Virus record (IMG/VR): IMGVR_UViG_3300029787_000060
Span: 1-55,081 of that record
Strand: one strand, 5' to 3'
Length of the DNA: 55,081 nucleotides
Source: a virus
Position 1 is the stretch's first letter. Every line of letters begins with the position of its first letter. The position numbers and the translations under genes were made by a program. Shown one piece after another: positions 11,091 through 43,900 of the stretch. The notes under the pieces were generated by a model. It was not told the DNA's origin and ran no database searches. It saw only the letters and a program-made list of their open reading frames with translations.

Positions 11091-11345
11091 ATGATTAGTA
11101 GACCACAGATGGGTAAAGAGATTATGGAATCACCTGCTCAGAAGAGAAAGATCAAGAAAGTCATGTCCGAGTACAAGGCTGGAGATCTTAAAAGTGGTTC
11201 TGGTCAAAAAGTAACCAGTCGTGATCAAGCTGTTGCTATTGCTATGTCCGAAGCAGGCTCTGCTGAGAAAAAGTTTAGCGGTGGCCGGGTTGGTAGGGGC
11301 AATGGCAAAGCCGTTCGTGGATTAACCAGAGGCGCAATCAGATAA
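11091..11345 (+). CDS. Small basic protein, DUF6496-like
   Basis: This 84-aa protein has KIKKVMSEYKAGDLKSGSG followed by VTSRDQAVAIAMSEAGS, the pattern of DUF6496. It starts directly after the stop of the previous gene, and its stop overlaps the next start (ATAATGG). As the fourth basic protein in a row it probably shares a virion or DNA-condensing context with its neighbours. Confidence 0.65.
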   Translation: MISRPQMGKEIMESPAQKRKIKKVMSEYKAGDLKSGSGQKVTSRDQAVAIAMSEAGSAEKKFSGGRVGRGNGKAVRGLTRGAIR

Positions 11346-12040
11346 TGGCTACTAGCGGAACATACTCTTTCAATCTAGATATAGGCGATATCATAGAAGA
11401 GTCCTATGAAAGGGCTGGAGTAGAGCTTAGGAGCGGCTATGACTACCGCACCGCTAGGAGAAGTTTAGATCTTCTTATGCTTGAGTGGCAGAATAGAGGT
11501 TTAAACCTTTGGACTGTTCAGTCTTCAAGCATTACGTTAACTCCGGGGACTGGTCGCTATGCCCTGCCTGCAAAAGAGTTAGATATTATTGAGGCGTTTA
11601 TAAGGACAGATGCTGGAAATACCTCTAGTCAATCCGATCTTATGATGCAAAGGATATCTATAAGCCAGTATTCTCATTTAACAAACAAGTTAACTGAAGC
11701 TAGACCCTTGCAGTATTGGATTGAGAAAGACCCTTCTCAGATAGCAATTAACCTCTGGCCTGTACCAGACACTGCTGAAACGTATACGTTGGTTTATTAC
11801 TATATGGAGAGGGTACAAGATTCCGGCAAGCCATCTTCCAACAATATGGATGTTCCTTCTAGGTGGTTGCCTTGTCTTGTTTCTGGTCTTGCTTATCAGA
11901 TTAGCGTTAAGAGACCTGAAGTTTCTGAAAGAGCGCCGTTGCTTAAGCAGGTTTATGACGAGCAATGGGAACTAGCTTCTGATGCAGATAGAGAAAAGGC
12001 TGCGTTGTACGTTGTGCCGGGAGGTTATCAGTATCTATGA
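11345..12040 (+). CDS. Head-tail connector, P22 gp4-like
   Basis: A 231-aa protein starting with helical segments (IGDIIEESYERAGVE, ARRSLDLLMLEWQNRGLNLW) typical of the ring-forming neck adaptors below the portal in P22-like phages. The later LTPGTGRYALP and INLWPVPD segments are conserved in marine relatives. In such phages the adaptor seals the portal and anchors the tail hub. Its overlap with the next gene (ATGAGC) suggests a neck operon. Confidence 0.75.
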   Translation: MATSGTYSFNLDIGDIIEESYERAGVELRSGYDYRTARRSLDLLMLEWQNRGLNLWTVQSSSITLTPGTGRYALPAKELDIIEAFIRTDAGNTSSQSDLMMQRISISQYSHLTNKLTEARPLQYWIEKDPSQIAINLWPVPDTAETYTLVYYYMERVQDSGKPSSNNMDVPSRWLPCLVSGLAYQISVKRPEVSERAPLLKQVYDEQWELASDADREKAALYVVPGGYQYL

Positions 12041-16046: not shown

Positions 16047-16280
16047 ATGGCACTTACTGCCGAACAACAAGCACAAGTTGACCTTCAAGCAGCACTTGAT
16101 AAATGTCGAGTAGATGAGCAACTTCGTATTGATAATAAAAGAAACAAGCTAGACGCAGTTCGCACTGCGGAAAGACTACTCATCCATAACCGAGTAGATC
16201 AGCCATCTGGAAGTCGTGAAATAACTGCATCCGATGTTACAGCCTACGCTCAGACATTAGTGGAATATATTGAAAGTTAA
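16047..16280 (+). CDS. Small helical protein of unknown function
   Basis: A 77-aa protein with a Gln/Ala-rich helix and a DVTAYAQTLVEYIES end. AGGAGATACCGTT precedes the ATG. It directly follows the fibre gene and its stop overlaps the first oxygenase start (TAATG), so it is in one transcription unit with them. No recognisable motif. Confidence 0.6.
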   Translation: MALTAEQQAQVDLQAALDKCRVDEQLRIDNKRNKLDAVRTAERLLIHNRVDQPSGSREITASDVTAYAQTLVEYIES

Positions 16281-16852
16281 TGAATTGCTATTCATATTTC
16301 CCTTCTCTGGTTTACAGGGATGAAAAACCAGAGTGGTTGTATCCTTTAAAGAAATATGTAAGCGAGTATTCTGGGGAAGTTTCAGAACAAAATTCGTTTT
16401 TTCAAACTGCTGATATATCAGAATCTCCTGAGTTAAATGACTTTGCAAGATATATTCTAGAAGAATCAAATAAAATTCTTTGTGAGCAAGGTTATGATGT
16501 AGACAGGTATAACCTTAAGGTAAACATCTGGGCGCAGGATGCTTATCGTGGGTCATCAACAAACATTCACGTTCATAAGAATTCTTTTCTTTGTGGGTGG
16601 ATGTTTTTGGATAGACCGGAAAAAGGCTCTTACCCGATCTATTATGATCCAAGAGTTAGAAAAAGCATGTCTAGTCCAGACAGTTTTGTTTCAGAGAGTC
16701 TTACGGAAAGTTCTGAAACATGTCACTTCAATAATGTTGGGCCGGGTACGGTGCTTATATCTAGCTCGTGGCTAGAGCATTCTCTTTCAGCAAATAATGA
16801 TGACCTGCCTACAACATGTCTCCACTTTATTGTTTCTGGCGCATATAAATAA
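16280..16852 (+). CDS. 2OG-Fe(II) oxygenase family protein (first of six)
   Basis: The 190-aa protein shows an HVH motif (H97, H99), a strand FLCGWMFLDRPEKGSYPIYY and a distal H167 in LISSSWLEHS, the order of metal ligands seen in the 2OG-FeII_Oxy_5 group. These enzymes use iron, oxygen and 2-oxoglutarate to hydroxylate a substrate. The usual aspartate of HxD is not at the expected place, as in other members of this group. Substrate unknown. The start overlaps the preceding stop. Confidence 0.7.
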   Translation: MNCYSYFPSLVYRDEKPEWLYPLKKYVSEYSGEVSEQNSFFQTADISESPELNDFARYILEESNKILCEQGYDVDRYNLKVNIWAQDAYRGSSTNIHVHKNSFLCGWMFLDRPEKGSYPIYYDPRVRKSMSSPDSFVSESLTESSETCHFNNVGPGTVLISSSWLEHSLSANNDDLPTTCLHFIVSGAYK

Positions 16853-17436
16853 TGCAATACCCGATAGTCCCCTATGCAAGAACAACTGAACCGTATGTTT
16901 GGTGGAAGGGTGGCTTTTCAGAAAATGAAATTGAATGGCTTGCACAGAAGGCTTTAGTGGCTAATGAACGCGCTCAAGCGGGTGGTCAGACCGAGGATAC
17001 TCTTTTAAATGTGAGGCGTTCCTATGTCAATTGGCTTGAATGTGATAACGAAAGCAAATGGGTTTATGAAAAGCTTGAAAATATAGTTTCTAGTTTGAAC
17101 GCGCAATATTATGGGTTTGACCTTACTTGCTTTGCTGAGGCGCTTCAGTTGACTCGTTATTGCATGTCAGAGCAAGGGATGTACGGATGGCATCAAGATT
17201 GTGGTGAGGGCGGGAAGCCAAACAGAAAATTGTCTTTGGTTATGCAGTTGACTGACCCATCTCAATATGAGGGAGGCAACTTAGAGATAATGACAAACAA
17301 AGACCCTCTTGTTGTTCCAAAAGAAAAAGGTCTTGTAACGGTGTTCCCTTCGTACATGTTGCATCAAGTAACCCCTGTTGTTCAGGGGGAAAGGGCTTCT
17401 CTTGTAACTTGGATATCTGGGCCTACGTTTAAATGA
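16852..17436 (+). CDS. 2OG-Fe(II) oxygenase, prolyl-hydroxylase type (second of six)
   Basis: A 194-aa protein with a complete facial triad: H114 and D116 in YGWHQD and H171 in FPSYMLHQV, with R181 ten residues later positioned for the 2-oxoglutarate carboxylate. The strand GGNLEIM and the turn LVTVFPS are typical of the P4H/PKHD fold. It is the most canonical of the six. It abuts the previous gene (TAATGC) and overlaps the next by four bases. Confidence 0.88.
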   Translation: MQYPIVPYARTTEPYVWWKGGFSENEIEWLAQKALVANERAQAGGQTEDTLLNVRRSYVNWLECDNESKWVYEKLENIVSSLNAQYYGFDLTCFAEALQLTRYCMSEQGMYGWHQDCGEGGKPNRKLSLVMQLTDPSQYEGGNLEIMTNKDPLVVPKEKGLVTVFPSYMLHQVTPVVQGERASLVTWISGPTFK

Positions 17437-18023
17437 ATGTTGAATATAAAGACTTCATAGGTATTTTTGAGGATGTGTACCCTGAAGGTTTCTGTGAATA
17501 TGTAATAAAAGAATTTGAAAGAATTAAGGAAACTGGCGCTGGTTGGAATCGCCAGAATACTGAAGGTGTATCTCGTTTGCATAAAGCAGATCATGCTCTC
17601 AATATTTTAAATCATGCAGCTCCCAATTTTGGTGAGGATCGTATGGAAGATGTTTTCTTTGGGGGGCTTCAAAAATGTTTTGAGTCTTATTCGGAAACAT
17701 TTTCTCAGTTAAAAAATGTTGAAGTTAGAGGGACGTACATGAAAGTCCAGAAGACTTGTCCCGCAGAGGGGTATCATGTTTGGCATTCAGAGAGAGCGCA
17801 CGGAAGAGATAAGGAAAGAGTCTTAGTTTATAACTTGTACCTTAATGATATAAAAGATGAGGATGGTGGAGAGACTGAGTTCTTGTATCAAAAACTTCGG
17901 GTGTCCCCAAAGAAAAACACCGTTGTTATGTGGCCTGCTGATTTTACTCACGTTCATCGTGGTAATCCGCCTCTGGGAAAAGAAGATAAGTACATAGCAA
18001 CTGGCTGGTTTTACTATGAATAG
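17433..18023 (+). CDS. 2OG-Fe(II) oxygenase (third of six)
   Basis: This 196-aa protein has YHVWHSERA (H118, E120, an HxE variant of HxD), LVYNLYLNDI and GGETEFLY strands and FTHVHRGNPP with H173 or H175 as the distal ligand. The motif set is common among marine phage oxygenases. ATG overlaps the preceding TGA (ATGA). The substrate is unknown. Confidence 0.82.
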   Translation: MNVEYKDFIGIFEDVYPEGFCEYVIKEFERIKETGAGWNRQNTEGVSRLHKADHALNILNHAAPNFGEDRMEDVFFGGLQKCFESYSETFSQLKNVEVRGTYMKVQKTCPAEGYHVWHSERAHGRDKERVLVYNLYLNDIKDEDGGETEFLYQKLRVSPKKNTVVMWPADFTHVHRGNPPLGKEDKYIATGWFYYE

Positions 18024-18612
18024 CTTTGCAGAGAAAGGCTACACCATAGTAAAAGGCTTTCTTGATTTGGAAGAGACGGTAAGAATATCAAAATATTTAG
18101 AAAACTGTGTGAATAGAAAAGCTTGTAGCACAAGGACTGGAGAAGAAAATATTACGGATCAGCCGAGTAGATTTTATTATTACGCTGATCCCTTGATCGA
18201 ACTTATCTTAGAAGAGAAGACTAAAGAAATAGAGGAGATTGTTAATCTTCCTTTATATCCAACGTATTCATTTATGCGAGTCTATGTAGACAGTGACGCT
18301 TTAAGAAAGCATACGGACAGGCCTGAGTGTGAATACTCCGTTACCGTTCATGTTGCTAAAGTTGGTAAAGACTGGCCTATATGTATTAAAGACATACACG
18401 GCAATGACAATAAGATTATTTTAGACCAAGGGGATGCTTTGGTTTATAGAGGTTGTGATTTGTTGCACTGGAGAGACCCTATGAAGCAGTGCGGTACGGA
18501 TTTAAATGCCCAGTTTATGCTACATTACGTTGAAAAAGATGGCCCCTACAGTATATGTAAGTTTGACAGAAGGCCGAAATTAGGATTAAGCGACAGTTTT
18601 AAAGCGAGGTAA
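18016..18612 (+). CDS. 2OG-Fe(II) oxygenase-like protein (fourth of six)
   Basis: The 198-aa protein has RKHTDRPECEYSVTVHVA (H99, D101) and GDALVYRGCDLLHWRDP with H151 as distal ligand. An arginine in the usual position ten residues on is not obvious, so co-substrate binding may differ. It overlaps the third oxygenase by eight bases and precedes the glycine-rich protein by two. Confidence 0.78.
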   Translation: MNSFAEKGYTIVKGFLDLEETVRISKYLENCVNRKACSTRTGEENITDQPSRFYYYADPLIELILEEKTKEIEEIVNLPLYPTYSFMRVYVDSDALRKHTDRPECEYSVTVHVAKVGKDWPICIKDIHGNDNKIILDQGDALVYRGCDLLHWRDPMKQCGTDLNAQFMLHYVEKDGPYSICKFDRRPKLGLSDSFKAR

Positions 18613-18614
18613 TT

Positions 18615-19613
18615 ATGCCTATAGGATCATCGAAAGCTGGGGTTCTGGGCGCAGGTGTTGTCCCCGGTGGTTCAGAAACATTTAATTCGTCTGGCACGTT
18701 TAGCGTCCCTGTGGGGGTTACTTGCGTCAGTGTCACGGGTTTAGGCGGAACAGGTAATGCAGGTAATGCAGGTCAGCCGGGTGGCGCTGGCGGTGGTGGC
18801 GGTGGTGGTGCTGGAAAATGCGTTCAGAACCAAAACACTTCTCCCATAGTAGTTAATCCCAGTTTTTTTATCGGGCCTAATTTTAGGAATAGAGGCGGCG
18901 GCGCTCCGGGTTATCCCGCTCAGTGCGGTGGTTCCGCAGGAAATCCGGGCAGTACAGGCCAAGCTTCTTCTGTTTTTTGTATTAATTTTGCTGGCGGTGC
19001 AGGCGGTAATGGCGGCGCTGTCGGTAATGATGGTCAGCTAGGAGCAACTGGTGATACAAGTAATTCAAATATAAGTTCTCCAACTAACTCCAGCACCAAC
19101 CCCTCTGGAGTTGGCAATAATGTTAGTGGCACTGGTGCGCCATTATCGGGTCGCGGTGGGTCGGGTTTTGCGGGTACTCCTGATGGCTACGGTGTTGGCG
19201 GCGGAGGGGGTGGTGGAGCAGGGGTAACTAATGCCGGACAAGACGCTAATGACCGTGGCGCTAGGTGTGGTGGAAACCCCGGAGGTGGCCCAAGCGGAAA
19301 CGGGGCATCTAACCTCCCGTCTGGGCCAGCTAACGCGCAGAGCGGCTCAGGCGCAAACGCAGAAAGAGCAGGCGGTGGCGGCGGTGGTGGTGGTGTAGTC
19401 CGCTATCAGGCAGTTCAGGATGCAGTAGGTTTCTTTAGTTCTGGCGCGGCTGGAGGTGGTCGTGGAAACGCAGGTGGTGGTGGTCAACCCGGAAATCCCG
19501 GTCAAGCTGGAAGCCCATCTACATCTAATGGTGTTACTGTTTGTTCGGGAACATCATATCCCGTTACGGTAGCAAGCGGTGGTCAAATTGTTGTCAATTG
19601 GAATCCTCAATAA
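18615..19613 (+). CDS. Glycine-rich adhesin or fibre-tip protein
   Basis: A 332-aa protein begins with a small beta domain (ETFNSSGTFSVPVGVTCVSV), then has several hundred residues with runs of five to eight glycines and GxxG or PGNPGQAGSP collagen-like stretches, and ends in a beta segment YPVTVASGGQIVVNWNPQ. Glycine-rich regions of this sort form polyglycine II sandwiches in phage S16 adhesin gp38, so receptor binding is a fair inference. Five cysteines or so are dispersed. It sits between oxygenase genes, which may act on it or may simply be neighbours. Confidence 0.75.
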   Translation: MPIGSSKAGVLGAGVVPGGSETFNSSGTFSVPVGVTCVSVTGLGGTGNAGNAGQPGGAGGGGGGGAGKCVQNQNTSPIVVNPSFFIGPNFRNRGGGAPGYPAQCGGSAGNPGSTGQASSVFCINFAGGAGGNGGAVGNDGQLGATGDTSNSNISSPTNSSTNPSGVGNNVSGTGAPLSGRGGSGFAGTPDGYGVGGGGGGGAGVTNAGQDANDRGARCGGNPGGGPSGNGASNLPSGPANAQSGSGANAERAGGGGGGGGVVRYQAVQDAVGFFSSGAAGGGRGNAGGGGQPGNPGQAGSPSTSNGVTVCSGTSYPVTVASGGQIVVNWNPQ

Positions 19614-20128
19614 TGGCAAAAAGTAGATTAGATAAAGCGCGTGAAGAAGCCGAAATTGCTCAGACTAAGGCCCGAGAGGAGGCTACAATTGCCTCTATAA
19701 AAGCAGAGGCCGCAGGTCGGGCAAGGGGTCTGACAGTAGGTACGGCTTTTGGTGGAACCACAGAAATCGCAATGCGTGGCAATGATGGCAGGTATGTGTA
19801 TAGTCTTCTTCAACCTGTTGAAGTAATAGAGCTTATACATCAACTATCGGCAAATGTTGGATGTCACCTAAAGCTTTTGCCCAGACACGATTTTGCAAGT
19901 TGGCGAGATTGGAAGGTTACTGAGGAGGAGCTTGCTCACTTTCGTGGTAATCAACCGCTTCCCGGTATGGGCCATCCTCCGCATGTTAATGATATGGCTC
20001 CACATAAAGATGAAGGAGGCGGAGTATTGCCTGCTCCAGAAAATCAGAAAGGCGTTCCTATAGCCTTGAAGGGTGAAGAGAATGTTATGGCAATTGAAGA
20101 GGCTGTCAACAAACGAAGCTCTCAGTGA
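19613..20128 (+). CDS. Conserved fibre-module protein with N-terminal coiled coil
   Basis: The 171-aa protein has a charged coiled coil (about 1-40; repeated Ala/Glu/Arg/Lys), then a conserved core GNDGRYVYSLLQPVEVIELIH and a CHLKLLPRHDFASWRDW segment, and a disordered Pro/Gly tail. Similar proteins accompany the glycine-rich fibre in marine phages. The ATG overlaps the previous stop. Function unknown; a fibre connector is possible. Confidence 0.62.
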   Translation: MAKSRLDKAREEAEIAQTKAREEATIASIKAEAAGRARGLTVGTAFGGTTEIAMRGNDGRYVYSLLQPVEVIELIHQLSANVGCHLKLLPRHDFASWRDWKVTEEELAHFRGNQPLPGMGHPPHVNDMAPHKDEGGGVLPAPENQKGVPIALKGEENVMAIEEAVNKRSSQ

Positions 20129-20465
20129 GGCCGGAGAATTACCTCAAGATTGGGGGCCAATTTTTGGACTTGAGGGCGTTAAGGATCGGCTAGGCGATTT
20201 GTCTTGGCTTGGCAAGCATTATGAAGATATGGGGTGGGTTGAGGTTGAAGGTGAATTGCCGCCTCTCCCAGCAGAAGCAACTCCATCTGAGATTGTCTGG
20301 CAAAAGGCAAAAGACCTCCTAAAAGATTCTGACTGGTCTATGATTTCTGATGTGCCTATGACAGTTAGACAGAAGCAATTGTGGATAGAATATCGCAAAG
20401 CCTTAAGAGACATTAGGCTTCAACCAAATTTCCCTGAAGTGGATTGGCCTAAAAAGCCTGAGTAA
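20073..20465 (+). CDS. Tail fibre assembly chaperone
   Basis: Residues about 75-125 match the phage tail assembly chaperone family (PF16778 as I remember): SDWSMISDVPMTVRQKQLWI, then YRKALRDIRLQPNF and DWPKKP at the end. Such chaperones help fold or trimerise fibres. It starts at a GTG (20073) or ATG (20082) inside the previous gene, overlapping by about 50 bp. Confidence 0.8.
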   Translation: MKRMLWQLKRLSTNEALSEAGELPQDWGPIFGLEGVKDRLGDLSWLGKHYEDMGWVEVEGELPPLPAEATPSEIVWQKAKDLLKDSDWSMISDVPMTVRQKQLWIEYRKALRDIRLQPNFPEVDWPKKPE

Positions 20466-20466
20466 T

Positions 20467-21000
20467 ATGGACAAGAGCCTAGACTTCGGACTGCCGCTAT
20501 TCAAAACAAAAGCTGCTGGTCATCAATCTAACAAATCAAAAATAGTAGAGTGTATTGAGTCTGGCACAAAGTACGGAATAGATAGCAGTAATATAAAACT
20601 TTCTAGTTGTGATTGGCATGTCATAGGCGCGAAGAAAGAGTATTGGGAATACAGCCAGTGCGATATACAAAGTCATGTAGAAGAGGTGGCCCGTTCTTTA
20701 AACTTTTCAGAATGGTCAATAAACGATTACTGGTATCAGTATTACAGGACAAATGATTTTCACGATTGGCATGTTCACGGTAACTGCATGTTCGTTGGTG
20801 TTTATTATGTCAAGTTAAGCGCAGATCACCCAAAGATACTATTTAGCTGGGAAGGGAAAGAGTACGCTTCCCCAGTAGAGGAGGGAGATATCATTACATT
20901 TCCCTCCTTTCTTCATCATAGAGCGCCAAAGAATGAGACTGAAGATAGCAAGTTAATAATATCTTTTAATGTTAATTTCAATATTGGCGTTTATGAGTGA
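20467..21000 (+). CDS. 2OG-Fe(II) oxygenase, Oxy_5 type (fifth of six)
   Basis: The 177-aa protein has a YYRTNDFHDWHVHGNCMFVG core (H99, H102 and H104 near the active site), a GVYYVKLS strand, and EGDIITFPSFLHHRAPKNET with H150/H151. This is the layout of the 2OG-FeII_Oxy_5 group and resembles the first oxygenase. A final IISFNVNF strand closes the fold. It starts one base after the chaperone stop. Confidence 0.8.
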   Translation: MDKSLDFGLPLFKTKAAGHQSNKSKIVECIESGTKYGIDSSNIKLSSCDWHVIGAKKEYWEYSQCDIQSHVEEVARSLNFSEWSINDYWYQYYRTNDFHDWHVHGNCMFVGVYYVKLSADHPKILFSWEGKEYASPVEEGDIITFPSFLHHRAPKNETEDSKLIISFNVNFNIGVYE

Positions 21001-21218
21001 AGTACAGGATTAGGTTCAATAAGTCTAGAGGTCAGCCCGGAAGAGGATCTGAGCAGCACGTTTGGAGAGTTCTTCAAGGTGAAGATGAGTTACTTGCCAA
21101 GCATGTAGTGATTGAGGTTCCTTCTCACAGTGAGCAAGAAGGCCCAGACTGGAATATTGTGTGTGATGGAAGACTAATGTTTTTTAAAGACACCGATACT
21201 GTTGTGATATGCAAATAA
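20997..21218 (+). CDS. Small conserved protein of marine phages
   Basis: A 73-aa protein with KYRIRFNKSRGQPGRGSE at its start and a GPDWNIVCDGRLMFF strand later. I recall similar proteins in pelagic phages and cyanophages, always uncharacterised. GTG start overlaps the fifth oxygenase stop; its own end overlaps the sixth oxygenase by ten bases, so the three are tightly coupled. Confidence 0.65.
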   Translation: MKYRIRFNKSRGQPGRGSEQHVWRVLQGEDELLAKHVVIEVPSHSEQEGPDWNIVCDGRLMFFKDTDTVVICK

Positions 21219-21799
21219 ATTTTTATCGAAAAGATAATTTAAGTTATGCCGTTATAGATGAGTATTTTACTGATGAAGAATATTCGGAAGTCTTGTCAGA
21301 GGTTAGAGATTTAAAGCGTTTGTCTGTAAACCCAAAGCTCACTGCCTCAGCTAAGAATAAATCTGGCGATACGCTGAAGACAGGTAATGGTGTTTTTGTA
21401 GATCAATTGTATCAATGTAATAGAGGCGCATCTCCGTTGCTTCGCACTGGAAGAAAAATATTTGACGAAAAATTATGTGACGCTTTAGAAAAATGCGATG
21501 TCATATTCAACGCTATAAGAGAATCTAATGTAGACACTATGCTTATAAATTATTATTCGCCGGGCGAAGTTTACAAAACGCATAAAGATACTTGCAATAT
21601 AACGGCAATATCTTTAATGGGTTGGGGCGATTTCTCTGGTGGGGGATTTTGTTTCCCAGATCAAGACATAACCGTTAGTTTTAAACAAGGCCGAACAGTT
21701 GTATTCCCCTCATGCGCTAATCATTCTAGCGAACCTATTCAGGGTTCTGATGAAGATTGCAGGGTTTCTGTAGCGCATTTTATGTGGGGAGAAAAATGA
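21209..21799 (+). CDS. 2OG-Fe(II) oxygenase (sixth of six)
   Basis: A 196-aa protein with complete ligands: H125 and D127 in YKTHKDTC, H172 in FPSCANHSSEP, and R185 in CRVSV near the end. The GGGFCFPDQ strand lies between. It is canonical for the superfamily and distinct from the second oxygenase in sequence, which suggests independent origin rather than recent duplication. Confidence 0.85.
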   Translation: MQINFYRKDNLSYAVIDEYFTDEEYSEVLSEVRDLKRLSVNPKLTASAKNKSGDTLKTGNGVFVDQLYQCNRGASPLLRTGRKIFDEKLCDALEKCDVIFNAIRESNVDTMLINYYSPGEVYKTHKDTCNITAISLMGWGDFSGGGFCFPDQDITVSFKQGRTVVFPSCANHSSEPIQGSDEDCRVSVAHFMWGEK

Positions 21800-33307: not shown

Positions 33308-34993
33308 ATGTATAACATCCTTGAGGTTGAGGATAAAATAAAAGGCTTGCCTGATCAGGCTCTTATGAGAGAGGCCCAGTTTCCTAGCGGTGATGTGCCG
33401 CAGTTTCTTGTTGTTTCAGAATTACAGCGCCGGAATGAAATGCGTAAGTCCTATGCAGCAATGCAGGAACCATCTCAGACTGTTCCGGTTGCCCAACAGG
33501 TAGTGGCGGAGGCAGGTCAGGGTATTGCTGGCGTTGTGGGCGGCAATGCTTTGCCTGTCTCTGCTCCTATGCAAGCACAGACCCCAATGGCTGCACCTAT
33601 GCAGTCCTCTATGCCAGCACCTATGCAGCCTCCCGTACAACCTCCTATGCAACCTCCTATGCCACGCCCTCAAGCCCCTGCTGGGATAGTGGGTATGCAG
33701 TCAGGTAGACAGGCTCCCTATCAGCGTCAATATAGGGATTTTGCCGGAGAAGCAAGGGATAGGAGAGAGAGGAAAATTGAAGAGCTTTACAGAGACTTAA
33801 ACCCATCCCAAGCTACTACATACCTTAGCTTGATTGAAAGCGGTGTTGATCCTGAAGAAGCTCTGTTTTCAGTCAGTGATGTTTATAGAACAGATGATAC
33901 GTTAACTGGCGTGGAAGAAATCCAATCTATTCAACCTTTTGACCCTAGTAAAGTTCCAAGCAGAACTGCTGGCCCAATAGGTACTGAGTACGATGATCCC
34001 CTTAATCTAGACCTTACATACGGTGATGGTTTTCCTGTTCCTGTCCCTGACCCTGCTGATCCTCCTCCAGATCCAAGTCAGCTAGAACTTGGCAGTTATA
34101 GGCAAGGGATTATGGATTTAACTAAGGCAGGAAGGGAAGATATTGCAGCATTAAGAGGTCAAATTAATGAACTTGATCCTTATCAAGCAAGTTTTACAGA
34201 GCGTGATTTTATTGCTGATAACATAGATAGGCAGTCTTACATAGATAGATTGTCTAATATTGCAGGAGAGGACATAGCGTCTAGAGAAGTCTTAATTGAT
34301 GAACTTCAAGAGAAGTCTAAGAAGGATGCTCTTAGTGCTTTCCTCATGAGCTTTGGTGCTGGTGTAGCTGGCGGAGACCTTAGCGGTGGAATACAGCAAG
34401 GAAGCAAGGCTGCTCAAGACGTTAAACAAATAGCTGACAAGAGGCTATTTGATGAGCGCAAGGCAATGAGAGATGTCAAGTCTGCTGCTGAAAGAGAAGC
34501 CGTTCAGCTAGGTTTGTCCGCTGAAGAAGCCGCACTTGCTGGGCAGAGGGCAGAGCAGCAGTTTGGGGCTGATCAAGATGCACTCAGAAACACTATTGAA
34601 TTTCAGAACTACACAACATCTAGACAACAATTGCTAGATCAAATTTCTGGAGCGAGAGAGGATGTCACTACCATTGCCACTCTTATGAAAAACGAAGCAG
34701 ATATCATTAATGATGCAAATAGAATTAGGCAAGCTTTTGAGGCTGAGGCTGGCAGAGAAAGAAGAGATATAAGGAACTACATTGAAGAGTTTGTTAAGGC
34801 CCATAGAGAAACCTTGGAAGCATCTCTTTCTGGGATAACTGATCCTTCTTCTGTTACTAACCTTGTTGATTCCTATAGAAAATTGCTTGAGCAGGAGTTT
34901 AATTTGAGAGAAGCTGATGATGAATCTTCTCCTCCGTCTGCGGTAGAAGATCTTGTTTCTTCTATGAGCATTAACAGATCACTCACTAACTAA
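33308..34993 (+). CDS. Internal virion protein with Pro/Met/Gln-rich linker
   Basis: A 561-aa protein with a conserved N-terminus (LPDQALMREAQFPSGDVPQF; VVSELQRRNEMRK), a Pro/Met/Gln linker (about 85-125, repeats around PMQPP), a helical coiled-coil body (about 270-500) and an acidic end. Small Gly/Ala patches (AFLMSFGAGVAGGDLSGGIQ) might touch membranes. ATG has TAGGAGATAAAAT upstream. Probably ejected or structural within the head. Confidence 0.72.
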   Translation: MYNILEVEDKIKGLPDQALMREAQFPSGDVPQFLVVSELQRRNEMRKSYAAMQEPSQTVPVAQQVVAEAGQGIAGVVGGNALPVSAPMQAQTPMAAPMQSSMPAPMQPPVQPPMQPPMPRPQAPAGIVGMQSGRQAPYQRQYRDFAGEARDRRERKIEELYRDLNPSQATTYLSLIESGVDPEEALFSVSDVYRTDDTLTGVEEIQSIQPFDPSKVPSRTAGPIGTEYDDPLNLDLTYGDGFPVPVPDPADPPPDPSQLELGSYRQGIMDLTKAGREDIAALRGQINELDPYQASFTERDFIADNIDRQSYIDRLSNIAGEDIASREVLIDELQEKSKKDALSAFLMSFGAGVAGGDLSGGIQQGSKAAQDVKQIADKRLFDERKAMRDVKSAAEREAVQLGLSAEEAALAGQRAEQQFGADQDALRNTIEFQNYTTSRQQLLDQISGAREDVTTIATLMKNEADIINDANRIRQAFEAEAGRERRDIRNYIEEFVKAHRETLEASLSGITDPSSVTNLVDSYRKLLEQEFNLREADDESSPPSAVEDLVSSMSINRSLTN

Positions 34994-37900
34994 TGCCAAC
35001 TACAATTGTTAACGCACCTGATGGTGGGCTGATAAGCGTCAACCATCCTGAAGGAACTAGCGACCAAGATATTCTGAACTATGCTGCAAGGATGTTCTCG
35101 GAAGATCCTTCTATTTCTCTTCGCCCGGAAGAAGAGAACATCACTCTAACCGGAAGGATTGCTGAGACAGCGAAGGCTGTACCCAGAGGGTTTGCTTCCG
35201 GCTTCCTCACAGCAGCAGAAGGTCTTGCTGAACTCTCTGATGCCGCCACTAACGCCATAGGTCTTGAAGGTCTTATAGATTCCGGTGACGAGAATGCTCT
35301 TGTCTATGGAGCTAGGCAGGCTAAAGAGGCAATCAACTCTACGATAGGGGCTGACAAAGCCTATCAAGACCTGTGGAGTACCAAGTTTGGTGAGGGCTTA
35401 GGTTCCTTTGCCACGTTCCTTACACCCGGCGCGGCATTCAGGCTGGCAGGTAACGCATCAAAAGCAGCAAAAGCAACCACTGGTTTGACTAAGTTAGTTG
35501 GTGCTGGAAGCGCAGCGGAGGCTGCTACTGTTGCAACTCTTGCTACGGGAACTGGTGCTGGAGAGCAGGCACAAAGAATCCAGATGGCTAGAGATTCTGG
35601 CGTTGAGATAAGTCAAGCTCAAGAAGACTCAGCTATTGCCTTAGCTTCCATTGTTGGTCTATCAGAACTAGCCCCTGTAGAAAGGTTGTTTAGAAAGTTA
35701 GACAAAAACCTAGTAGACGATAAGACACTTAATACTATTGGTGACCGAATCAAGTCTGCCCTTGGCACTGGTGGTGTTGAAGCTGTACAAGAAGCTGTTG
35801 CTGGCTTGTCTCAGGACTTGATTGAAAAGAATATATATAACGAGGAGTTGCCAATTGGCGAGTCCTTGTACGATGACTTTACTGTAGGCGGTGCTGTTGG
35901 TTTTGTATCTGACCTAGTTCTAAACGCTGCTGCTGGCAGGCGTAGAGGAGTCTCCAGTGAGACCGAAAGAGAGTATGAAAGAAAGTTAAGAGAAGCTAAC
36001 GCGCAAGCCGCCGAAGATCAGGCGGAACTTGTTAGCAACATAGGCCGTGAAGAAGTCCTTGAACCTCAAGTCATAATGCCTGACCAAGATGACGTTCAGG
36101 GTATGCCTTCTTACGCACGAAAAGTAGCTAGGGATATGGGTCAGAACTTCCCATTGACCACAAGCTTTGGCGTTCAAGAAACAACAGAGACAGTTACCAG
36201 AACTGTAACCAATCAGGCTGGCGAGACTATCCAAAGAGAAGAACAAGTCCCTGCATTTGTAGCGACTGACTCTGATGGCAGGATATACGGCAAGACATTT
36301 CAGAATTATGAGCAGGCAGCAGTTTTTGCTGGCGCTCTCAATGATCAGCTTATCAACAGGGCTGTGACCAATTCAGTATCAGACATTATTGATACCTCTC
36401 CACAGGCTTATGACCAGCCTACCTTCCAAACCCTTTCCTTCTGGGGCAACTCCGCCCTAAATCCAGAGAACAATACTGTTACGTCTAACGCCTTGAATAT
36501 GGCGGCAGGCACAACTATTGATCAGGGTTTTAATGAACAGGAAACCTCTACTGATGCGGCAAGAAGAATTAGCAACTTGGCTGCAAGGGGGCAAGCACCT
36601 GTAAATCCTATGAGTCTTATGACTGCATCACAACGTGCCAACTGGAGCAGGCTTGGCAGTGGTCAGTCAGAAACAGATGTCTTTACTTTTGAAGAAGCTA
36701 AGAAAGAGTTAGGTGATGACGTTGCTAATCTTGCTGATGTGAGAGAAGACTCAACGATAGAGACAGAGACTTATCGTGTTGATAAAGATAACAGGGGCAG
36801 GCCCATAGTGGTTAGCTCTGCTGGTGAAATTATCACACAAAGACCTACTACGCTAGTAGAGCGTAGGGAGAAGAAGGGTCTTGGCAGAACTACAAGAATG
36901 CAGACGGAGCAACAAGCTCAGGCTGTAGCCGCTGGTCTAAACACTATGGCAGGAAGGGCTGTAGATAAGCTTGTATTTCAGGACAGAACTTACGGGCGTG
37001 AAGAGATTAAGAATTTACTGGAAGCCAAGAATGTAACTGACGAGCTTAACTCTCCTCAGATAAAAGCTCTGGCCCAGTCATTCACAGGGAAATCAGGCGT
37101 AGACAAGATGTCTCGCGCTGAGATGAAACTGTTTTACTTGAAGTTACGATCTCTACCACGGTTCGAGGTGGCGACTAGTCTTCCTGTATTTACCCCCAAG
37201 ATATACACAAGCCAGCAGTTTCGTCTGGCCTCTCAGCATGTTGGGCAGAACCCGGATTACACTAACGAGTCTTTGGCTGAGGCTGTTGGTATTAGTGAAA
37301 CTGATCCTCGCTTTGAAAAGAAGATAGAGCAAATCACTGCTGATCTTAATGCTCAAGGGGTAGAGTCCGTAGAGGTTACTGAAGAGGCTGTCATTCCTGT
37401 TGAGCGTAGACTGCCAAGTGCTAGTGAGGAGATTACTCAGCAGCTTGAGAAGCAGCTCTCAGAAGAGATGGATAAGCTTAACCTTGGTGACGTAAGGGTC
37501 AGTGTTCTTCATGCTCTGACCAATGTTGTCAGGGATGCTGATGGAAATCTGGTTCTAGGCGTAAGAAGGTTTGATCCCGCCAGAGACCAAGGAGCTACGA
37601 CTCTTGACCAAGAGGGTAACTTTGTCGCTGACGAGTTGCCTGAGCAAGAGCAAGCTCTCTACTCAAGGAATTTGAACGAAGTATTCTTTGGCGTTGACAG
37701 GCTGCAAAGATTATCTGATGAGGGCGCTACTCCAGAGCAACTGTTTGAGACTGCGAAGTCTCTCCTGAACCACGAGTCAGTACACGCTATGCGTATGCTT
37801 GATCTCTGGACAGCGAATGAATGGTCTAGCCTAGAAAGGCTTGCTAGAACTAAGAAAAATTCGCTTGGTCAAACCTACCTTGAGGCTGCTCAAAAAACAT

Positions 37901-40900
37901 ACAGTGACCTGACTCCCGTGTATCAGATGGAAGAGGCGGTAGCTGAACTAATTCGTGACGGCAGAAACAAATTTACTGGCAAGCCAAGAACTCTGATACA
38001 GAGAATCAAGACATTCTTTGAGTCAATGCTAAGTTTCTTGCGCGGTACAGGGTATACAAGCTTTGATTCATTGATTGGCGATATTGAGTCGGGAACAATT
38101 GGAGCAAGAGACAGAGATCAAGTTAGAACTCTGAGAGCTACAGAAGCTGCGCGAGGCGTTGTCCCAGATCGTGGCATTCTTCCGCGAACCAGAACCACGC
38201 CTAAAGGTGCGGCTAGAGAAAGAAGTGCCATAGATATACCCCGTATAAGGTCAGAGATGAAGGCGAGTGCAGATCCAAATATAGTGGCTTTGGAGTCTCA
38301 GTTATCAGATGATCAGATTAGGGTAATGAGAGGAGCAGCTCGTCCGTCTGGTGACTTCCTTGAGGTGGGGCAGATACAAGCTGTTGCAGAGCAAGCTGAT
38401 CAAGCTCATGCAAGGCTTAATCTTTCCGATCAAATAGATAGTGTGGTTAGTGCAGTCCTGCCTGAAGTTAATAGAAGGCGTGGACGTAAGCCCCCTGTCA
38501 CGGAGGCGCAGGCTAAGAAAGCTGTGCTTGATTTCAGAGCCTCTGTTCCAGAGCAAAAGGGTAAGCTAAGACCAAGAGATACTTTTGATAAAGCTTTCAA
38601 GACATTAAGAAGGGATGACCTTTCTCAAAGAGAGGCTCTCAGTCACAAAGATGTATCTCTAAAAATCCCAGAGATAGCTGTCTCTACCATACTTTTGAAA
38701 GATGGCTTGATAACTAGAAAGCAACGCAATGCAGTTGTTAATAAGTTTAAGCCTGTCACTTCTTATCAATCATTGCCAGACAACTTGCTTACCACAAAAA
38801 AGAGAGCGGTAGATGCGCTTGATGACAGCAAGAAGTCGATGTTTGGTAAGACTAGAAGAGTTATCAAAGACGAGAATCTTGAGTACATAGCTCTACGTTT
38901 AGATATTCCAGCGTATCTTAGAGATGGCGCTTGGGTTGTTACTGCACATAAGCCAAGAGCTGCTCGTCTTAGAGAAGGACGAGGGGCATTTCAGGGGCAG
39001 GCTGGCACACCTATAGGATACGAGTTGGCTATGTCAGTCAATGATGTCTCTTTTGGTACTGGACGAGAGTCTGACTTTGGAAGGAAGGTAGCAAGCGGAG
39101 TAGCCACTGGCGCTGCTACAAAAAATACCTTTGCCACGATAGAGGGAAGGCCCGAAACAGAAAAGAATTATACCTCCCTGCTTAAGGAATCGAGAGCAAT
39201 ACTTAAGGACATGAAGGAAGGCAAACCAACAAACTGGAGACAGGTTGGCTATGATCCTGAACGTCATGCTTACTTTTACGACAGGGCTAACGGTGAACCA
39301 ATCGTTGCCGCTGACAGGGTTATACAGATAGGCCCATTGGTTCTGGCTCAGAACGCTAACGTCAGTCCAACGGGTGAATCAATAAGAGCTACGCAGGAAG
39401 ACTTCGCCTTCTCTCGCACTCCAGTCACTGTTCCCCCTGTTGAGTCAGATGTTCCTGTCTTGCCTATCGGTGATGTAGAGAGAGGATTGTATGCGCTTAT
39501 TTCTGCCGCTGGTGGTAGCCCTACCTCTGAGCAACTTGCTGAGGTTCCCGGCGCCCCCAGAAAACGCAGTAAGGTTAATAAGAAAGGTGACAAAATTCCT
39601 GACAATGAAAGGGACAGCGAGGTAAGGGCTATCTCTCTGGATGAGTTGCGTCAGTACATGAGAGAAGGGCTTGAAGGTTCTGAGAATTTGCAATGGTATG
39701 ACCAGTTTGGTTCTGGTCTTATGGAGATTGTTGGCCCTGCAAACATAGAGGAAGCCTCTGTAATCTTTGGTATAACCTCTCAGCAAAATTCCGCTGAACA
39801 AAACCTAGCCGATACACTTCACATTATGTCCGTTGCTAGACGGATTGATCCTGTTGAGCAGACATCTAAGTTTATGGAGGAAGTGTCTGAAGGGACAAGG
39901 CCCGGAGGCCAGAAGCTAAAGATTACTGGCGATCAGATAAAACGAATAGCCAGAATGTACAAGGAAGGATTTGCTGATGCAGGTCTGAAGACTAGCACTT
40001 ATATGCAATTGATTCAGGACAGGGCTAGGAATAAGTTTAATCCTTTCTCTGTGCAAGATGTTCATATGGCTAGGGTTTTTGGATTCAGAAGGAAAGGCTA
40101 CGACAAGAAAACTGGAAACCTTGTTGATGCTGCTATGATACCCGGAGATTTGCAGTACAGATATGCCCAGTATCTTACTTCATATCTGGCGGAGGAGTTT
40201 AATATCACTCCCAATCAGGCACAGGCTGCGCTCTGGTTTTATGCCAAGAGCAATCTCAGCCCGAAGGCAGATAAAAAGGAAGGTGCTGGTACTTGGGATT
40301 CTGCTAAGAGAAAGTCTGCAAAAGAGATCAACGCTATAGAAGAACAGATTGCTGACGGTACGTTTGATAGAAACGTATCAGTTACTCCCGCTCTCAGGAA
40401 GGGAGTTAGGCCGCGCAATGCTGTCAAGGTAAAGCAGAATGCCTACACAAACTTTATTAACATGCCTGAGCTTGAAGCTCTTGCTGAAGCTAGAGCGCCA
40501 CTAGTCACTGTGTCTGCTAATCCGGGCAATGCCAGAGGTTATGGTTTTCCTGACACTGTCACGATAGATGAGATGTTTGACTTTCACGAGCAGGCATTAG
40601 ATGCAATCACTGACAAGGATGGACAGATACCTTTCCTTAGAAGATTAGGCATAGCTCACAAGATAGAACTCACTGCTGGAACTTATGAAGGTCTTGAGCC
40701 TTCGTTCCAGATCAAACTTCTAAGTGGCAGTAAACCACAGGCTTTGCTTGCCACTAGCATATTGGGTGACGCGCTTCTTCAAGATGCAGCGATTGCCGTT
40801 AAGCCAGCATATAAAACTGGTAATCAGGTAGGCTTGGCTGTCAGAAAGCCTGATGGTTCTGCCTTCACTCGTGCAGAGCTAGAGGCTATATCTACTACAG

Positions 40901-43900
40901 CTAACCCTGAGAAAGATCCAGAGGGTATGAACTTTACTGCGGTCAGGCCAGACACGTTGGTGTTTATGGATGGTAGGACATTTGATCCTAGCACTGCGGC
41001 ATCTTACACAGAAGATATGCTGGAAGAGTTTGGCACTAAGTTGTTGACATCTCTTGACACGGGTTTACAATATGACATTCAAGCATATTATCAGGAGAGC
41101 GATTATGTTGGATCGGAAAGCTATTCAGAAAACATTAGGCAAATTAGGGATCAAGGAAGCGTCCCCGGATCATCCGGTATATTCGACACCCTTGACCGTG
41201 AGCTTTATAAACCGTTCTGGGAAACCTACACCCAAGCAGCAGCGCGAATCGGATTTACTCCAGAAAGCACAGCAAGACCAACAGTAGAAGAGCTAGTTCG
41301 TGCGCCCCTTTCGGACAGGCTTCCTCCGCCTGCACCTATCTCTCAGAATGCAATTGATAAAGCTGTTGAGCAAAACCTTCAGGACGTAGCTGACGCCAAG
41401 TCAGGAGCCGTTCCTCGCCATTCAACCAAAGCCTCACCCGAAGCCCAAGCTGTAGCTAGAGACCCTGAGATAGGCTCTACGATCCCTCCCGGTATGGAGG
41501 ATGCTTACTCCCGCAAGAATGTCCCTGAGTATGAGCCGGACTCTGTAATTCCAAAACTGGTTGATACAAACCCACAAACTCAAACTGCTTTCGAGGTGTA
41601 TGAGCAGGCTACTGGAGACACTAGTAGATGGACGTACTATACAACCAAATTTAGAAAAGCATTTATCAACAAGTATTCGCGTATTGAGTCTTTATCCAAT
41701 GATAAGTATCTAGGTGATGCCGTTGGATATCTGGCTGATACGAGCGCCAATGCAGCACTAATGTTTAAGGACAGGTCTAGAGGTGTTGCTGCTTCCACTA
41801 TTAAGTATGGTACTCCAGTATACAGAGATGGGCTGACTAAGGTTGAAGACTTTGAAAACAGCAAGGGCGATAAGATAGATGGAGTCATTGGTCTACTAGC
41901 CCCTCTTCAGCCAAGCGGAAATCCTTATGGAAAAAATCTGGAGGAAGTTGCACAGGCATATGCTATTGCGAAGCGTGTTAAATACTTACACAGCAAAGGA
42001 AGATACACCGACAAGATTCCTGTTGGAAAAGAAGATGAATACTTAGCGGCACTAGAGAAAGAGGCTGACAAGTACCTCAACGAGAACGGCGATTCAATCA
42101 TACGAGAGTGGTATCAGAACTGGAGCGAATATAATGATGGCATTGTCAAGTTTTTAAAAGACACGGGAGTCATCACTGAAGATCAAGGTTTGGAGTGGGC
42201 GAGTATGTCTTCCTACTATCCGTTCTATATGGAAGCGGATGGCGAGACCCAAGGTGTAAACCTCTTTAGTGGTATGTCTGCCGCACCACAGACTGTTAGC
42301 AACGAAGAGTTTAAGGCGGTAGGTAAGAGCGGTAAGCCTCTCAATGTGTCTATGTTTGATGCAATAGTAAGAAACATTACCGCTGCTATTGATATGGGAA
42401 TGACCAATGTAGCTTACCAGAGAGTGGTAAGAGATCAGGTTCTCCTTGGTCAAGCTAGGGAAATCCCACAAGGCGGTTCTGTAAACAACAAATACACTGT
42501 TAACTTTCGCGTCAATGGACAGAAGAGAACCTTTGAGTTATTTGACCCTCTGACGTTTGAAGCGTTGAAGCCGATCTCTGATGGTGAAGCTTACGAGGTA
42601 ATGGCAACTATTCTCGGCGCTCCTGCAAACTTGCTTAGAGAAACTGTCACAAGAGATCCCGGCTTTATCATAGTCAACATGATGAGGGATACCCTGTCTT
42701 CCTATGTAACATCTGGCTCTAAATATAAGCCTGTCATAGATACTGTTGCTAACTTTGGCAGTGGTATGGAAACCCTAGAAAGGTATGGGATTGTTGGCGG
42801 CTATGATTTGGTAAACGATCCTAAAGATCTTAAGAAGTTTTTTAATAAAGAGTTAAGGCGTAGAGGTCTTGATCCAGACCAAGGTCTAGGTTCTAAAGTT
42901 TTTAATAAAACTCTTGGTTCGGTCTGGGAGATGTTAGGACAAGCCACAACTATGTCTGATGCCGCCACAAGAATGGCAGTTTACAAAGATGTTCTAGCTA
43001 GAACTGGCAACGAGGCGGAAGCTGCATTGCAGGCTATGGAAGTTATCAACTTTGCTAGGCGCGGCTCTAACCCAGTGGCTAGGCTTGCCTTCACAGCTAT
43101 ACCTTTCCTGAACGCAAGGATACAAGGTCTTGATGTTTTTTATAGAGCGTTTGCTGGCAAGTATTCGGCAGACAATGAGGCATCAAGAAAAGCTATCGCT
43201 GGCAGGGCTATAGGAAGAGGCTTGTTACTGACATCGATAACTGGTTTGTACTGGGGTCTTGTCAGTGATGACGATGAGTATAAGTTACAGAGCGATGAGG
43301 TCAGAGATAACAACTGGATCATTCCTACTGGCACTGGTTACCCCATCAAGATACCTATCCCATTTGAAGTTGGTCTTGTGTTTAAGACCATACCTGAGAG
43401 AGCCATAGACGCTGCGTATGGCGAGTCCACTGATGCTAGAGAAATGACTGAGTCTATTAGACGGGGCGTTATGAGTACCCTTGAGGTAAACCCTCTAGGT
43501 ATTCAAGCGTTTGCGCCAATAGTAGAGGCGGCTTTTAATCACAACTTCTACACTGGTAGACAGATCGTCCCATACTATATGGATCAAGGTCTTGAGCGCG
43601 GATTCCAGAGTAGAGTTGGTACTAACAAACTTGCTGAATATGTTGGACAGGCTTTGAATATAAGCCCTATGAAGATAGAACATATTATTTCTGGATATGT
43701 GGGAACCATAGGAGGCTATGGTCTTGACATGATAGACAAGACTTTAAGGAGCGAGGCTCTGGTTGGAGACTTGTCTGAAGCAATGCCTGCTCTTGATATG
43801 CAGCAGTTCCCTTTGATGAAGAGATTCTTTGGAACCAAGGAAGGATCTGGTGTCACTCAAGATTTCTATGAAATAAACAGAGAAGTTAATCGTGTTGTTC

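Follow-up and report, generated by a model that had tools for sequence, protein, structure and literature searches.

A glycine-rich, tail-fibre-tip-like phage protein is linked to 2OG-Fe(II) oxygenases that may modify it

Several oxygenase-like genes surround a gene for a glycine-rich protein in an uncultured virus record, which raises the question whether enzymes and protein belong together and whether the protein might be the substrate of its neighbours. The sequence analysed here comprises positions 1 to 55,081 of the record IMGVR_UViG_3300029787_000060 (55,081 nucleotides; from here: the window), and its large terminase is nearest to those of HTVC027P, 023Pt_psg01, DSL-LC04 and HTVC023P. 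The Gly-rich, tail-fibre-tip-like candidate substrate of 332 aa (from here: GLY) is encoded at 18615..19613 on the plus strand, which carries all genes of the locus described here. Upstream of it lie four oxygenase-like genes that overlap each other by 1–8 bases: O5a (16280..16852; PF13759, Pfam E-value 1.1e-9, above cut-off), A (16852..17436; PF13640, 2.9e-15), B (17433..18023; PF13640, 2.7e-13) and C (18016..18612). The stop of the fourth at 18612 and the GLY start codon ATG at 18615 are separated by 2 bases only. On the other side, the gene u7 (19613..20128) starts within the GLY stop (TAATG) and encodes a conserved protein of unknown function that gave neither a PHROG match nor a significant Pfam match. 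It is followed by a tail-fibre assembly chaperone (20073..20465; PF16778, 4.3e-13; phrog_4912, tail fiber assembly) and by two further oxygenase-like genes, O5b (20467..21000; PF13759, 4.8e-10) and D (21209..21799). D scored 25.7 bits against PF13640, just below the cut-off of 27, and its HxD...H motif is kept in 13 aligned sequences.

A previous reading of the letters alone (from here: the sequence-only reading) had noted a Gly-rich ORF two bases behind the fourth oxygenase-like gene, with poly-Gly and PGNPGQAGSP stretches, and all of this was confirmed by the ORF and its composition. Its description of the gene as embedded between oxygenases holds in that both sides harbour such genes, whereas direct adjacency exists on the upstream side only, with u7 and the chaperone intervening downstream.

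Glycine accounts for 100 of the 332 residues of GLY (30.1%), including poly-Gly runs of 7, 7 and 8 residues. The Gly-X-X periodicity was modestly above that of composition-preserving shuffles: the longest loose run spans 8 triplets (shuffle mean 4.5; 1.3% of shuffles reach 8), the longest strict run 5 triplets (reached by 2.0%), and the glycine autocorrelation peaks at lag 3 with 48 observed versus 29.8 expected. Only 20 GxyG triplets are present, three of them GNPG; their prolines Pro111 (codon 18945..18947), Pro222 (19278..19280) and Pro295 (19497..19499) are candidate hydroxylation sites.

An AlphaFold2 model built from a 51-sequence alignment (pLDDT 87.1) predicted a compact single-chain domain, in which strands at residues 19–43, 261–274 and 302–329 frame a long, non-helical and mostly non-strand Gly-rich core (residues 44–260; 18744..19394). 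The pLDDT of this core is mostly >85, dropping to <60 near residues 71–80 and 151–170. The top match among solved structures was the fibre of phage Pam3 (7ypx; VIA Z 7.1, rmsd 1.8, 63 aligned residues), a score that is weak on its own as Z is <8, and the Foldseek E-value was 0.08. Vitamin K carboxylase, the Bxb1 tail tip and the Gly-rich region of ALK/LTK followed in the VIA ranking, and among predicted structures of viruses, most matches were Gly-rich domain or tail-fibre proteins or uncharacterised proteins of phages. S16 gp38 was not returned by these fold searches, an outcome that does not exclude an S16 gp38-type fold. The earlier suggestion of a Gly-rich receptor-binding tip thus agrees with the top match, a fibre that is S16 gp38-like by description, although the match is a modest one.

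GLY belongs to no Pfam family, the cut-off of PF21722 (Gly_rich_2) was not reached, and a single one of 51 GLY relatives matched that family (E = 0.0043). The GLY alignment yielded weak matches only against PDB profiles; two of three were collagen-like and the best, with an E-value of 0.1, was a phage fibre chain. A tblastn search with the GLY protein against a phage collection returned no match, for which low-complexity masking is the probable cause.

Turning to the enzymes, H114xD116, H171 and R181 of A are conserved at ≥0.99 among 132 aligned relatives, and the same level was found for H118xE120, H175 and K186 of B among 180. Both proteins hence possess the HxD/E...H metal triad plus the basic 2OG-binding residue by which 2OG-Fe(II) oxygenases are recognised. 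In C, H99xD101, H151 and R153 are conserved at 1.00 among 91 aligned relatives; C matched no Pfam oxygenase family, but the HxD...H motif is conserved nonetheless. Its match to phrog_2954 (3.9e-48) carries the label ‘ferrochelatase’, while C remains far under the ferrochelatase cut-offs of both Pfam (14.2 versus 27 bits) and NCBIfam hemH (19.6 versus 124.6 bits). The same label is attached to relatives of C in PHROGs and phage records despite their invariant HxD...H, and the pairs of ‘ferrochelatase plus 2OG oxygenase’ in the literature may consist of two oxygenases.

In PDB sequence profile searches, A matched PKHD/PiuC (2e-12) and prolyl 4-hydroxylases (P4Hs; 4.5e-7), while all five matches of B were P4Hs (best 1e-7). 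For A, AlphaFold2 gave a model with a pLDDT of 92.4 that was closest to the P4H of P. putida with a VIA Z of 19.8 (rmsd 2.9 over 176 residues), followed by PHD2 (up to 19.4), an algal P4H (17.6), PiuC (17.3) and the collagen hydroxylase vCPH of PBCV-1 (16.6). In this model, A has the fold of a protein prolyl hydroxylase. Because the PKHD-type enzyme PiuC also scores 17.3, the fold alone has no power to fix the target residue; judged from the model, a role as protein hydroxylase is likely for A, with prolyl residues as the leading guess for its target.

The linkage between tip and enzymes was examined from three sides, with overlapping sets in which contigs recur (L454, for instance, is identical to L081), so that the counts below are not independent events. 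The first query consisted of the first 46 residues of GLY aligned with five relatives and contained no oxygenase information. It identified 114 confirmed loci on viral contigs, the best 80 of which were analysed (60 of the 80 Gly-rich proteins being non-redundant). Among these best 80 of 114, at least one of six oxygenase types is encoded within three genes of the Gly-rich gene in 79 loci, directly adjacent in 76, and in the sole miss (L228) the contig ends inside the gene that precedes A in its near-twins L229 and L234. The sequence-only reading had put its substrate idea at risk if most relatives were encoded with no oxygenase neighbour, and the opposite was found. Within four genes of the Gly-rich gene in the best 80 of 114 loci, A was present in 75, making it the most constant partner, followed by B (71), u7 (59), the chaperone (57), O5a (43) and C (32). 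A precedes the Gly-rich gene in 63 of these loci and follows it in 12; gene order varies, but the proximity of A and tip persists. A scan of genome contigs gave a single locus; its contig, binned into a MAG, encodes A, B, GLY, u7 and the chaperone. A small protein of 102–111 aa is encoded directly 5′ of the Gly-rich gene at L006 (7663-7992), L007 (4925-5257), L228 (5577-5882) and L232 (6654-6959); those of L006 and L228 gave no NCBIfam match.

Starting from the enzymes, the search with A yielded 80 loci at 55–63% identity, and a Gly-rich gene adjoins an oxygenase gene in 76 of them, while in the other four the contig stops at most ~260 bases from the last oxygenase gene. For B, a Gly-rich gene is near in 47 of 80 loci and lacking in 33, mostly those with more distant B relatives. 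Distant relatives of A were also inspected in seven records, named or uncultured: no Gly-rich gene is nearby in six, and in P-RSM4 one lies some 1.6 kb away. As B is less specific and distant A relatives mostly lack the Gly-rich gene, the link is a property of a subfamily of phage oxygenases.

The third query, a degenerate DNA pattern for GNPGN[AP]GN[AP]G, was independent of both the N-terminus and the enzymes. The motif was located in a called ORF in 69 of 80 loci (11 were set aside), and among these 69, A is found within four genes in 51 and another oxygenase in six. When only ORFs with at least 22% glycine were considered (n = 60), an oxygenase is encoded within four genes in 55 (47 non-redundant), adjacent in 44; the nine ORFs below 22% comprised two with and seven without an oxygenase. 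The five Gly-rich ORFs lacking an oxygenase were four at a contig edge and one, an unrelated-looking protein (L480), in full context. The A proteins in this set share 25–65% identity with the A protein of the window. At three loci (L473, L504, L263), GNP or collagen-like triplets occur in other tail-protein families with A- or B-like genes a few genes away, hinting that the link is tied to the repeat and not to the protein family.

As controls, Gly-rich phage proteins were collected with a DNA pattern for FTVPAGVT; we take these to be members of Gly_rich_2 (PF21722). Five of the 80 loci without a motif ORF, 23 proteins with <22% glycine and one family member (L181) were excluded. The HMM limit for labels was laxer here than in the family set (1e-4 versus 1e-5). 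An oxygenase-like gene was found within three genes in 5 of 51 control loci, or in 3 of 14 when three genes were visible on either side. A further comparison used the backbone gene at 11345-12040. After exclusion of six loci without a called query gene and 48 with <5 kb downstream, 26 of 80 relatives remained; neither any of the six oxygenases nor a TFN-type tip was found in the 26, and other fibres occupy the tip slot. Two loci could not be read, as a GNPG-type Gly-rich protein is cut at the contig end (L431, one of the 26, and L416 from the short set). In the readable loci, the cassette is thus present or absent as a unit. When loci were grouped by gene content (average linkage, since single linkage had merged nearly everything) with a cut at 0.8, eight clusters contain the cassette, but 102 of 133 loci fall into one cluster, so the independent origins are fewer than the counts suggest.

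The linked Gly-rich proteins also share a distinctive triplet composition. Asparagine occupies the X position of GxyG triplets in 47% and proline the Y position in 28% of cases in 117 non-redundant linked proteins, compared to 8% each in 40 controls. GNP is the commonest triplet in the linked proteins (592 of 3086, with 409 expected from the margins), and GNPG is present in 97% of the 117 linked proteins versus 5% of the 40 controls. Proline is distributed between Y and X at 878:65 in the linked set (a ratio of 13.5) and at 38:20 in the controls (1.9). Per protein, counting those with at least eight triplets (116 linked, 27 controls), the median share of asparagine at X is 0.46 versus 0.07, and the 5th percentile of the linked set (0.27) is above the control maximum (0.24). 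Proline at Y is more variable, from 0.06 to 0.58 in the linked proteins.

From the linkage, the triplet signature, the conserved catalytic residues and the enzyme fold we infer, with a probability of roughly two in three, that the linked oxygenases modify the Gly-rich tip. The region 16280-20465 would then be an exchangeable tail-tip cassette that brings along dedicated hydroxylases. GLY would be part of the virion as the distal, receptor-binding tip of the tail fibre, with Gly-rich strands that extend from a beta framework and pack side by side, and the chaperone encoded at 20073-20465 would aid its folding. Before or during assembly, the 2OG-Fe(II) oxygenases, above all A and usually B, could hydroxylate the Gly-Asn-Pro and Gly-Asn-Ala triplets, most likely at the Y-position prolines, by comparison with collagen-type and PHD-type enzymes, and possibly at the X-position asparagines. 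A benefit might arise from stiffening of the packed strands or from hydroxyls added on the receptor-facing surface. The proposal of the sequence-only reading that the adjacent protein is the substrate is partly supported, and strengthened by the linkage and by the prolyl-hydroxylase fold of A, while the hydroxylation itself would still be a deduction.

At one locus (L190, 6825-7991), the Gly-rich tip has as neighbour a single ORF of 389 aa in which A and B are fused, suggesting that the two enzymes work together. A rule that B goes with Y-position proline, derived from four B-poor loci, was dropped: the locus with the A-B fusion has little Y-proline, and L116, which lacks B, is rich in it. This failure of a predicted coupling between enzyme and residue speaks against the proposed modification, as do the few triplets of GLY itself, the 33 loci with B but no Gly-rich gene, the distant A relatives and L480.

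The same linkage could arise if the oxygenases only shared an exchangeable host-range cassette with the tip, acted elsewhere, for instance on glycans or proteins of the host surface, on EF-Tu, on nucleic acid or on the 2OG pool, and stayed with the tip as both suit the same host. Phage 2OG oxygenases are indeed common away from Gly-rich genes, the P4H nearest to A in the VIA search was solved in complex with EF-Tu, and the proposals in print for such phage enzymes, in the parts of the papers available to us, are modulation of 2OG/NtcA (PMC3037559), DNA repair and host reprogramming (PMC9602691). We nevertheless regard this as unlikely, since the link follows triplet content and not the slot alone: generic Gly-rich proteins have an oxygenase neighbour in 5 of 51 loci versus 55 of 60 for GNP-type proteins, and other fibres on the same backbone in 0 of 26.

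Less probable still is that the triplets are purely structural, with asparagine at X and proline at Y suiting strand packing and the oxygenases linked by common descent of the cassette. The controls, too, show a mild bias of proline to Y and most loci belong to one gene-content cluster, as this would have it; the bias is far stronger in the linked set, on the other hand, and the cassette spans eight clusters, with A upstream or downstream and, in the GNP set, 25–65% identical to that of the window. A third possibility, in which GLY forms a triple helix as in collagen and is the substrate of a collagen-type prolyl hydroxylase, would fit the Gly-X-Y periodicity and the Y-position proline bias, and the sequence-only reading had referred to collagen-type Gly-X-Y regions. 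Long uninterrupted Gly-X-Y tracts as in collagen-like proteins are absent from GLY, with strict runs of at most five triplets, its model is a compact single chain, and the structure it matches best is not collagen but the Gly-rich fibre of a phage. We therefore rejected the triple helix for GLY and rate it as very improbable. Modification of the tip by the linked oxygenases is the reading we prefer.

The closest known counterpart of GLY is Pam3 gp24 with its chaperone gp25 (7ypx; PMC9608196), which combines a beta domain, a Gly-rich domain and a chaperone, as predicted for GLY. According to the portions of that paper available to us, folding of gp24 is chaperone-assisted and a relation to ALK and S16 gp38 is drawn. 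Different from GLY, the Gly motif of gp24 is GGGGxGG instead of GNP triplets, an N-terminal helical shaft is present that is absent from the GLY model, and those portions mention no hydroxylase. The polyglycine II sandwich adhesin gp38 of Salmonella phage S16 is a Gly-rich receptor tip, as GLY is proposed to be, as far as described in the accessible text of PMC6630733. The Gly_rich_2 family (PF21722) resembles GLY in consisting of Gly-rich phage proteins.

On the enzyme side, the matches of A and B include two protein prolyl hydroxylases, namely the viral collagen enzyme of PBCV-1 (5c5t) and the P4H of B. anthracis (5hv0). To our knowledge, a phage fibre is involved in neither case, and unlike there, several putative hydroxylases flank a predicted phage tip here. 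The cassette shares protein families with pairs of 2OG-Fe(II) oxygenase and ‘ferrochelatase’ AMGs of marine phages (PMC9599517, PMC11561400); in the sections of these papers accessible to us, the pairs are treated as metabolic genes and are nowhere linked to a Gly-rich tip. In HTVC023P, a cultured isolate, A-, O5a- and C-like genes are consecutive, and a Gly-rich protein of another kind, gp70, is encoded nearby.

Phage P4HA and tail-fibre collagen are mentioned together in one paper, which calls their use cryptic. The general idea is thus already in print, while the specific pairing of tip and oxygenases, like any report of a hydroxylated phage receptor-binding protein, was not found in the literature searched, which lay outside most subscription journals and bioRxiv. 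A 2012 study of collagen-like prophage proteins stated that bacterial and viral collagens have no preference for proline at Y and that the prolyl hydroxylases needed for it are missing from bacteria and viruses (PMC3368898). By contrast, the family described here combines a 13.5-fold Y preference with such predicted enzymes.

2OG-Fe(II) oxygenases are recurrent unexplained genes of marine phages, and a candidate substrate makes their role directly testable. Whether a widespread set of aquatic phages builds receptor tips of Gly-Asn-Pro/Ala triplet strands and matures them with protein hydroxylases encoded by the phages themselves, with hydroxyproline and/or hydroxyasparagine being part of host recognition and many ‘metabolic’ 2OG oxygenases and their ‘ferrochelatase’ partners serving as tip-maturation enzymes, appears to us an evenly balanced question. 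If true, this would provide an example of a phage receptor-binding protein being hydroxylated after translation. Elsewhere in the window, positions 34993-44196 harbour an ORF of 3067 aa, which is very large given the size of this phage.
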